Source of the DNA: Vagococcus hydrophili
GTDB taxonomy: Bacteria > Bacillota > Bacilli > Lactobacillales > Vagococcaceae
Reading direction: 5' to 3'
Assembly: GCF_011304195.1 (NCBI RefSeq)
Contig: NZ_CP049887.1
Coordinates: forward strand, 806,001-870,000
Length of the DNA: 64,000 bases
Of this stretch, positions 6,657-15,625 are shown in pieces. The notes below the pieces were generated by a model. The model searched no databases and had not been told where the DNA came from. It saw only the letters and a list, made by a program, of their open reading frames with translations. Position 1 is the stretch's first letter. Each line of letters begins with the position of its first letter. A program made the translations under genes and the position numbers.

Positions 6657-6783
6657 ATAGAGTTGCTACATCCATTATGCAGCGAATGCGAAAATAATGT
6701 CGCAAGTGCTCCTCTAGCACTTTTCGTCCAGTGAGCTACATCCCATCCCACTGGCACTTGACGCTTTATTTCCTACTCTGTTT
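6657..6783 (-). promoter_or_regulatory. Tetrahydrofolate (THF) riboswitch of folT
   Basis: Read on the minus strand, the leader contains the conserved THF-I riboswitch pieces in order: AGAGTAGG, AAGCGTCAAGTG, GTGGGATGGGATG, CTCACTGGACGAAA, a GTGC/GCAC hairpin, and GGATGTAGCAACTCT closing helix P1 against AGAGT. These elements match the known folT/folE riboswitch class. The 3' end is about 20 bp before the folT start, close enough to affect the ribosome site. I assign this by motif recall and not by a covariance model. Confidence 0.85.
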
Positions 6784-11569: not shown

Positions 11570-13708
<2,139 letters not shown>

Positions 13709-13789
13709 TTACTATCTGTTTTTCTGCCCATTAACAACACTATTTCATTCAAAAATCACTTTTTTGTTTTTGTTCCACATAAAATACGG

Positions 13790-13818
13790 TTGTTTTATTT
13801 AAATGAATCCCTTATAAT
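13790..13818 (+). promoter_or_regulatory. Promoter of candidate small RNA
   Basis: TTGTTT (13790-13795), a 17-bp spacer and a consensus TATAAT (13813-13818) lie on the plus strand. No plus-strand protein gene follows before the terminator at 13855-13881. Confidence 0.7.
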
Positions 13819-13824
13819 CATAAA

Positions 13825-13881
13825 CTGTGGTGTTCATTCATCATATTTTAGGCTAAGGCTGTCTTCGGGCAGTCTTTTTTT
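13825..13881 (+). ncRNA. Candidate small RNA of about 57 nt
   Basis: The promoter at 13790-13818 predicts a start near 13825. The transcript would end at a strong intrinsic terminator: AAGGCTGTC and GGCAGTCTT form a 9-bp stem closed by a cUUCGg tetraloop, followed by TTTTTTT (13855-13881). No convincing reading frame is inside: a GTG-started 8-codon frame exists but lacks a ribosome site. The unit lies opposite the presumed 3' untranslated region of the GNAT mRNA, so antisense pairing there is possible. The family is not recognised and transcription is predicted, not shown. Confidence 0.6.
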
Positions 13882-13882
13882 G

Positions 13883-14152
13883 TTATTTTTTAAGTAAATC
13901 TTGATACTCTAAGTGTGTTTCAAAATACTTCACAACATAAGAACAAGTTGGAATAATTTTGATGTTTTCATTTCGGGCTTTTTTTATAATTTCTAAAACT
14001 AATTTTTCTGCCAATCCTTTACCTCTTTGACTCGGATCAACAAAAGTATGATTTACCTCAATAACATCATCCATTACTGTCTCCCAAGTAATTTCAGCCA
14101 CCATTTTTCCATCTTCATTTAAATAAAATCGCCCATTTTCTTCTTGAAACAT
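13883..14152 (-). CDS. Small GNAT-family N-acetyltransferase (YjdJ-like)
   Basis: This 89-residue protein has the acetyl-CoA-binding motif RGKGLAEKLV and a C-terminal SYVVKYFETH segment. It matches the short one-domain GNAT proteins of the COG2388 type. Its acceptor substrate is unknown. ATG 14152 is chosen because AGGAG is 8 bp upstream, while the upstream GTG at 14161 overlaps that ribosome site. It is divergent from mntH. Its transcript probably runs past the stop to the minus-strand terminator at 13674-13702. Confidence 0.85.
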   Translation of the reverse strand: MFQEENGRFYLNEDGKMVAEITWETVMDDVIEVNHTFVDPSQRGKGLAEKLVLEIIKKARNENIKIIPTCSYVVKYFETHLEYQDLLKK

Positions 14153-14218
14153 GCGTCCCACTCCTTTTCATTTATCTCTCTTTAACTATATACAATTCAG
14201 CTTCTTAAAACAATTCTC

Positions 14219-14262
14219 TTGCTTTTTTGTTTATTTAAAAGCATAATTTAGGTACACCTAAA
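14219..14262 (+). promoter_or_regulatory. mntH promoter with DtxR/MntR-like operator
   Basis: TTGCTT (14219-14224), a 17-bp spacer and CATAAT (14242-14247) predict transcription starting near 14254. The palindrome TTTAGGTACACCTAAA (14247-14262) covers the start point and reaches the AAAAAGGAAGTG ribosome site. Its TTAGGT/ACCTAA arms resemble operators of DtxR-family manganese regulators (MntR, EfaR, SloR). Repression by manganese is an inference from this position and the downstream gene. Confidence 0.75.
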
Positions 14263-14278: not shown

Positions 14279-15625
14279 ATGAATAAACACCAAAATTTAC
14301 TTACTGATAAGCTTAATGGTTTAAGCTTACCCGAAATAAACAATACCGTTTCCGTCCCAAAAAATGCAAGTTTTTTAAGGAAATTACTCGCCTATTCTGG
14401 TCCAGGAGCTCTGGTTGCTGTTGGTTACATGGACCCAGGTAATTGGGTAACCTCCATTGCTGGTGGGGCGCAATACGGGTATTTACTCTTATCTGTTATC
14501 TTAATTTCTAATATCATTGCCATGATGCTACAGTACATGTCAGCGAAATTAGGTATTGTCACAGGAATGGATTTAGCCCAAGCAACACGCGTTCACACAA
14601 ATAAAAAAATGGGGATTTTCCTTTGGATCATGAACGAACTTGCTATTATGGCAACAGATATTGCTGAGGTAATCGGGAGTGCAGTTGCTTTAAATCTTTT
14701 ATTCGGGTTTCCTCTGCTACTCGGAGTCTTTATTACTGTTCTGGATGTCTTTTTACTCCTCATGTTAGCAAAACTTGGCTTTAGAAAAATCGAAGCAATT
14801 GTCATGACTTTAATTGCCACTATTTTTGTTATTTTCATGTACGAGGTTATATTAGGACAGCCCAACATGAGTGACTTATTTCAAGGGTTTATCCCTAGAA
14901 AAGAAGTATTAACTGATAACGGTGCCTTACTTCTTGCTCTAGGAATTGTAGGGGCGACAGTTATGCCTCATAACTTGTACCTTCATTCTTCGATTGTCCA
15001 ATCAAGACAGTATGATCGTGAAGATAAAGCTGAACTAAAAGAAGCAATTCGCTTTGCTAAATGGGATTCTAATATTCAATTATTTTTCGCTTTTATTGTT
15101 AACTGTTTACTATTAACACTTGGAGCGACATTATTTTTTGGTCATGGTGACTCATTAACAACACTGGGCTCTCTATACCATGCCTTATCTGACTCAACTG
15201 TCGTAGGAGCGATTGCTTCACCAGTGCTTAGCGTTCTGTTTGCTGTTGCTCTACTGGCTTCTGGTCAAAATTCAACGATTACAGGAACCTTGTCTGGGCA
15301 AATTATCATGGAAGGTTTTATTAAATTACGACTTCCAACTTGGGCTAGACGTTTAGTCACACGTCTTCTCGCCATCATTCCTGTCGTAATTGCGATTATT
15401 TTATTTGGAGACTCTGAAGAAGTTGTAGAGAAATTACTAATCTATTCACAAGTCTTTCTAAGTGCAGCCCTACCTATTTCGATTATTCCTTTGACTATTT
15501 TTACTAGTCAAAAGAAATTAATGGGCGACTTTACCAACCGTTTGTGGGTAACCGCTTCGGCTTGGATTATCACGGTTGTCTTAACTATTCTTAATGGCTA
15601 CCTTATTATCTCGACTTTTGTGTAA
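14279..15625 (+). CDS. mntH: Nramp-family Mn(II) transporter MntH
   Basis: The 448-residue integral membrane protein has about 11 helices. It carries the Nramp TM1 motif MDPGNW in [15 protein letters not shown], the TM6 motif MPHN in [14 protein letters not shown], and the conserved loop [14 protein letters not shown]. It imports Mn(II), and possibly Fe(II), with protons. The metal-ligand residues Asp, Asn and Met of TM1 and TM6 are present. A strong promoter with a DtxR-like palindrome precedes it. It is monocistronic, divergent from the GNAT gene. Confidence 0.95.

Follow-up and report, generated by a model that had tools for sequence, protein, structure and literature searches.

Does the interval between metG and a convergent GNAT gene in Vagococcus hydrophili encode an RNA of its own, and how might such an RNA act? 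A sequence-only reading of the 64,000-nt stretch of DNA analyzed here (the window) had pointed to an orphan small RNA unit at this position, with a textbook promoter and a cUUCGg terminator. The features that bear on the question are as follows.

11570 to 13576, − strand: metG
13680 to 13700, − strand: terminator of the GNAT transcript, from a terminator scan
13790 to 13795, + strand: −35 box TTGTTT, matching TTGACA at 3 of 6 positions, kept in 3 of 3 species
13813 to 13818, + strand: −10 box TATAAT, 6 of 6 consensus, kept in 3 of 3 species
13824 to 13881, + strand: predicted small RNA of ≈57 to 58 nt, from sequence and conservation
13826 to 13845, + strand: predicted 5′ hairpin UGUGGUG(UUCAUU)CAUCAUA, 7 bp
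13827 to 13856, + strand: 9-codon ORF GTG GTG TTC ATT CAT CAT ATT TTA GGC TAA, a rival reading
13846 to 13854, + strand: predicted single-stranded linker UUUUAGGCU, 9 nt, invariant in three species
13855 to 13881, + strand: intrinsic terminator with UUCG loop and T run, 9 bp
13883 to 14161, − strand: GNAT gene (Acetyltransf_CG family), convergent with the unit
14279 to 15625, + strand: mntH, NRAMP Mn2+ transporter, the next gene on the strand of the RNA

Anatomy of the unit

The unit lies on the + strand between the start of metG and the end of the GNAT gene. Its promoter boxes are separated by a 17-nt spacer, a spacing conserved in all three species that carry the unit. The description of the promoter as textbook is apt for the −10 box but not for the −35 box with its three mismatches, and a standard scan left the promoter unlisted. 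The 9-bp cUUCGg stem followed by seven T residues was found as described: the stem-loop spans 13855 to 13876, closes on C(UUCG)G, and contains four G-C pairs and two G-U wobbles, and the T run occupies 13875 to 13881 with two of its residues inside the stem. Placing the 5′ end at 13824 to 13826 from the position of the −10 box, and the 3′ end from the T run, predicts a short RNA bounded by its own promoter and an intrinsic terminator. The assertion that no gene follows on the same strand does not hold, as mntH starts 397 nt past the T run.

Such anatomy carries little weight on its own. Requiring an exact TATAAT, a −35 box with at least three of six matches, and a terminator within ≈130 nt, and counting both strands, we find one unit in the window and at least one in 22 of 100 first-order Markov windows. 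The combination of promoter and terminator by itself is therefore near chance and proves little, and the case for the unit consequently rests on conservation.

Conservation in three species

A DNA search of 14 genomes of the genus matched the unit in three: that of the window itself (G000), G004 with 89% identity, and G002 with 79% identity. A second, short match in G002 (L004) is, by eye, merely a similar terminator. The genomic place is identical in all three carriers, between metG and the GNAT gene. Across 13826 to 13865, 38 of 40 positions are identical among the three, a 2-nt insertion in G004 sitting between the counted columns of this comparison. The corresponding three-way count is 49 of 135 for metG fourfold sites and 100 of 215 for the remaining aligned positions of the stretch, which include the metG promoter region and the end of the GNAT gene; pairwise, the carriers differ at 43 to 51% of fourfold sites. 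At the metG fourfold rate, the probability of at least 38 identical positions in 40 is ≈6e-15, a value to be read in light of a stretch picked after inspection, sites that are non-independent, and three species that amount to few events. The conserved stretch begins beside the predicted 5′ end of the RNA and extends into the terminator. Conservation next to metG in related genomes had been put forward as a check on the unit, and the outcome favors it: all three species retain the promoter, the hairpins, and a near-invariant core. The conserved, lineage-specific unit probably represents a genuine small regulatory RNA.

These data also bear on the possibility that no small RNA function exists here and that the promoter and terminator merely coincide, or that the DNA is conserved for another reason, such as a protein-binding site. 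The frequency of like units in the Markov windows fits this explanation, as does a 9-nt palindrome-like sequence in the core, TTAGGCTAA, noted by eye. It is countered by the retention of both promoter boxes and of the fold, by the extent of conservation from near the RNA 5′ end into the terminator, and by the small probability given above, even for a stretch chosen after the fact. We regard it as very doubtful.

Predicted fold

All three RNAs are predicted to share a common fold composed of the 5′ hairpin, the single-stranded linker, and the terminator. Folded as a 59-nt RNA, the V. hydrophili sequence reaches −17.5 kcal/mol (z = −4.4), which none of 200 shuffled sequences equals, and the z scores of the three carrier RNAs are −4.4, −5.3, and −5.65; the terminator accounts for much of this low folding energy. 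The 5′ hairpin of G002 gains one pair, and the best fold of G004 adds a weak outer stem. When every predicted pair is read in each species, standard pairs fill 21 of 21 cells in the 5′ hairpin and 26 of 27 in the terminator, the odd cell lying beside the G004 insertion. The overall proportion, 47 of 48 (97.9%), compares with 37.5 to 64.6% when the partners are slid by 1 to 3 columns; a letter-shuffle control of the same test was uninformative (500 of 500). One-sided variation is seen in six of the 16 pairs and a two-sided compensatory change in none, so that covariation proper is absent among the three RNAs. Save for the G004 insertion, changes in the five variable pairs of the terminator are confined to the 3′ arm, a hint that the 5′ arm may be constrained in its own sequence. 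The fold leaves conserved unpaired regions suited to pairing with another RNA, namely, the invariant 9-nt linker, presumed to form part of the pairing region, and a hairpin loop with one change.

Distribution of the RNA

In two relatives, G003 and G005, metG is adjacent to the GNAT orthologue but the RNA is missing, and by eye their GNAT terminator follows immediately after the gene. GNAT identity to G000 is 78 and 65% in the other carriers, compared with 51 and 57% in G003 and G005, whereas the metG fourfold sites place the RNA-less G003 nearest to G000 (38% differ), so that the two measures disagree on whether the carriers form one clade.

Beyond the genus, the DNA search returned no match in 15 other genomes of the family (3 of 29 overall), and of 395 genomes of the order, only the three carriers, all of one genus, contain the core when up to three mismatches are allowed. 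A covariance model built from the three RNAs, whose E-values are rough, gives strong matches in G000, G002, and G004 alone among the 29 family genomes and, at E up to 1, some match in all 29. Eight of the nine weaker matches that we read (L040 to L048, E 3e-6 to 3e-3) resemble, by eye, terminators that follow other genes and lack the core; match L048 has just ATATTTTAGGCTA in common and is without such a terminator. The genome of V. hydrophili itself contains a single match at E 0.001, with no paralogue. A mobile origin was rejected, as plasmid and phage collections yielded no match and viral contigs no exact match to the core. Over the RNA region, every Rfam family scores below its gathering threshold. 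From this narrow distribution, with no convincing further member, we take the element to be either young or often lost; where it persists, it is under strong constraint.

A possible, nearly leaderless reading frame within the conserved core

Conservation supports the unit as an independent gene, as had been proposed, and leaves its noncoding nature uncertain, given that a 9-codon ORF fills the conserved part. On this reading, a 57-nt, nearly leaderless mRNA would consist of a promoter, the MVFIHHILG frame, and a terminator, and either the peptide M-V-F-I-H-H-I-L-G or the act of its translation would be the function, with the transcript possibly doubling as a base-pairing RNA. The start codon lies some 1 to 3 nt past the predicted RNA 5′ end and 8 nt downstream of the −10 box in all three species. 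A start codon (GTG, ATG, or GTG), the next eight residues, and the TAA stop, which extends into the foot of the terminator stem, are common to the three. The sole in-frame differences are a start-codon swap from GTG to ATG in G004 and a synonymous change from ATT to ATA; as 19 of 90 possible single changes in the ORF are silent, finding both changes silent has p ≈0.045. The frame thus accounts for the same conservation as an RNA would, but it was picked post hoc and the test involves only two changes. Both changes also keep the 5′ hairpin paired, which is true of 27 of 60 single changes (p ≈0.20), and the 5′ arm of the terminator, which lies outside the frame, is equally conserved save for the G004 insertion. 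GTG is, moreover, usually a poor start at a leaderless 5′ end. Weighing these points, we consider a micro-gene of this kind a serious but unlikely rival.

Antisense to GNAT or action in trans

The sequence-only reading had envisaged action either in cis, as antisense to the GNAT mRNA, or in trans. It also suggested that the GNAT mRNA runs to a terminator at 13674 to 13702, in agreement with our scan, which finds none on that strand before the one at 13700 to 13680; equivalents consisting of a hairpin plus T residues are visible by eye in the other two carrier species. The GNAT transcript, predicted to extend to about 13680, should accordingly carry the complement of the RNA, an arrangement that looks alike, by eye, in the other carriers. 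A cis-antisense RNA could then form a perfect duplex with the GNAT 3′ UTR and tune the stability of that mRNA. Pairing in cis would stay perfect however the sequence drifted, yet conservation of the RNA far exceeds that of the remaining stretch, and the two RNA-less relatives retain the GNAT gene with, by eye, a terminator straight after it. We find this explanation quite improbable, and action in trans appears more likely than antisense on the GNAT 3′ UTR.

Our preferred reading, toward which we lean with modest confidence, is that of a lineage-specific small regulatory RNA of ≈57 to 58 nt with its own promoter, acting in trans by base-pairing. It offers the best explanation of the observed anatomy, conservation, place, and predicted fold; transcription, pairing, and trans action are what we infer from them. 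A vegetative promoter would start the RNA and the intrinsic terminator would end it. The near-invariant UGGUGUUCAUUCAUCAUAUUUUAGGCUAAG, comprising the 5′ hairpin with its loop and the linker, would pair with one or a few mRNAs in the region where translation starts, and this pairing would alter their translation or decay. We place the presumed partner elsewhere because pairing with the GNAT 3′ UTR is automatic and needs no frozen sequence.

Candidate targets

We ranked 332 predicted gene starts, taken with crude gene calls from the window and a 400-kb sample (464 kb of the 3.05-Mb genome), by their predicted pairing with the RNA. For the 5′ part (first 34 nt), the best partner is the start of a ParB/Noc-like gene (−27.3 kcal/mol); among 200 shuffled sequences, 7 attain a minimum this low. 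With the G000 RNA used for the RNA-less genomes, the parB starts score −27.3, −24.8, and −20.5 in the carriers and −25.8 and −19.2 in the RNA-less relatives.

The start of mntH ranks 10th by the 5′ part (tied), 19th by cofolding, and 45th with the whole RNA, and at its start codon in G000, 13 of 14 nt pair with the RNA. Its energies are −19.0, −15.1, and −17.6 in the carriers versus −18.2 and −15.8 in the RNA-less genomes. Shuffled 5′ parts pair as well in 2 of 200 cases in G000 (7 of 1000 in a second run), 54 of 1000 in G004, and 16 of 1000 in G002, and among the RNA-less genomes in 10 of 1000 in G003 and 129 of 1000 in G005. Pairing in the RNA-less G003 is thus no poorer than in the carriers, which leaves mntH a weak candidate. 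Neither parB nor mntH is discriminating, since the starts in RNA-less relatives pair about equally well; these starts are presumably kept for coding reasons. Both stand as candidate targets only, predicted from pairing energies, and we name no target.

The start of an MsbA-like ABC transporter gene (L106, 421 to 2196) comes second by 5′ duplex and first by cofolding. It was rejected on the ground that G004 pairs far less well (−15.6, with −16.6 in the RNA-less G003), and at E 1e-150 neither G002 nor G005 has a match to the transporter. High predicted pairing is also seen at the start of a gene for a 131-residue protein (L110, 1803 to 2195).

Long complementarity was sought with antisense patterns of 16 to 17 nt, allowing up to two mismatches, in five genomes and with a reversed control. 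The patterns occur at 3 to 10 places per genome, RNA-less genomes included, versus 0 to 4 for the control. Six of the 61 places are the RNA gene itself. The 23 places that we read by eye lie within frames or opposite genes, and 0 are antisense at a start region.

Neighboring regulatory features

A putative mntH promoter, TTGCTT-17-CATAAT, is visible by eye at 14219 to 14247. The palindrome TTTAGGTACACCTAAA (14247 to 14262, + strand) touches its −10 box and is unchanged or has one to three changes in all four relatives read; it resembles an operator of the DtxR/MntR type. A role for the unit as a riboswitch or leader of mntH was discarded: no Rfam match over the region attains the gathering score, and mntH has, by eye, an apparent promoter of its own with this metal-regulator-like palindrome.

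On the other side of the unit, the 5′ leader of metG (13577 to 13634, − strand) is conserved in the five genomes compared. It contains, in order, GGACUAUAYGUAAAA, UGGG...CCCA, and RAGGAGGUUUA. The pair next to UGGG...CCCA is U-G, U-A, A-U, or G-C, by eye, and UUUACA, adjacent to the ribosome site, is a potential pairing partner for a UGUAAA close to the 5′ end. From its sequence, this may be a cis-regulatory leader. Elsewhere in the window, a THF riboswitch (6678 to 6782, − strand; 80.2 bits) is the sole Rfam match at the gathering threshold.

Significance and comparison with known small RNAs

If real, this lineage-specific regulatory RNA or micro-gene is compact, of a sort that annotation easily misses, and under unusually strong constraint in three species; with a core of 40 nt, it offers an inexpensive test case for finding targets.

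The RNA II antitoxins of Fst/par type I systems are very short RNAs with their own promoter and intrinsic terminator, located opposite a convergent transcript. The V. hydrophili unit shares this description in being very short, in having its own promoter and terminator, and in facing a convergent transcript. Unlike RNA II, its terminator is called in one direction only. Membership was rejected: where a toxin ORF of ≈30 aa would be expected, the − strand from 13688 to 13882 has no ORF of at least 20 aa with an ATG, GTG, or TTG start. The best bacterial small RNA family in Rfam, RF02838 (Ref55, Enterococcus sRNA 55), has a similar terminator and matches weakly over 13842 to 13882; at 15.2 bits versus a gathering score of 43 (E 9.7), we do not assign the RNA to it.

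A literature search found the core sequence in no paper. Among the matches listed for Vagococcus, the excerpts available included no small-RNA study beyond a survey of 6S RNA in lactic acid bacteria (PMC8414754), and those listed for mntH together with small RNAs included no described match.

The enterococcal small RNAs are also among the closest known systems. As characterized in the portions of the study by Michaux et al. (2020; PMC7724050) available to us, these are short and intergenic, nearly all have a σ70-type −10 box, ≈23 to 28% end in a predicted intrinsic terminator, and most are 73 to 115 nt in length. At 57 to 58 nt, the V. hydrophili RNA would be shorter than most of them, in a comparison made by description only. 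It resembles them, within the same portions of that study, as a short intergenic unit with a −10 box and an intrinsic terminator.
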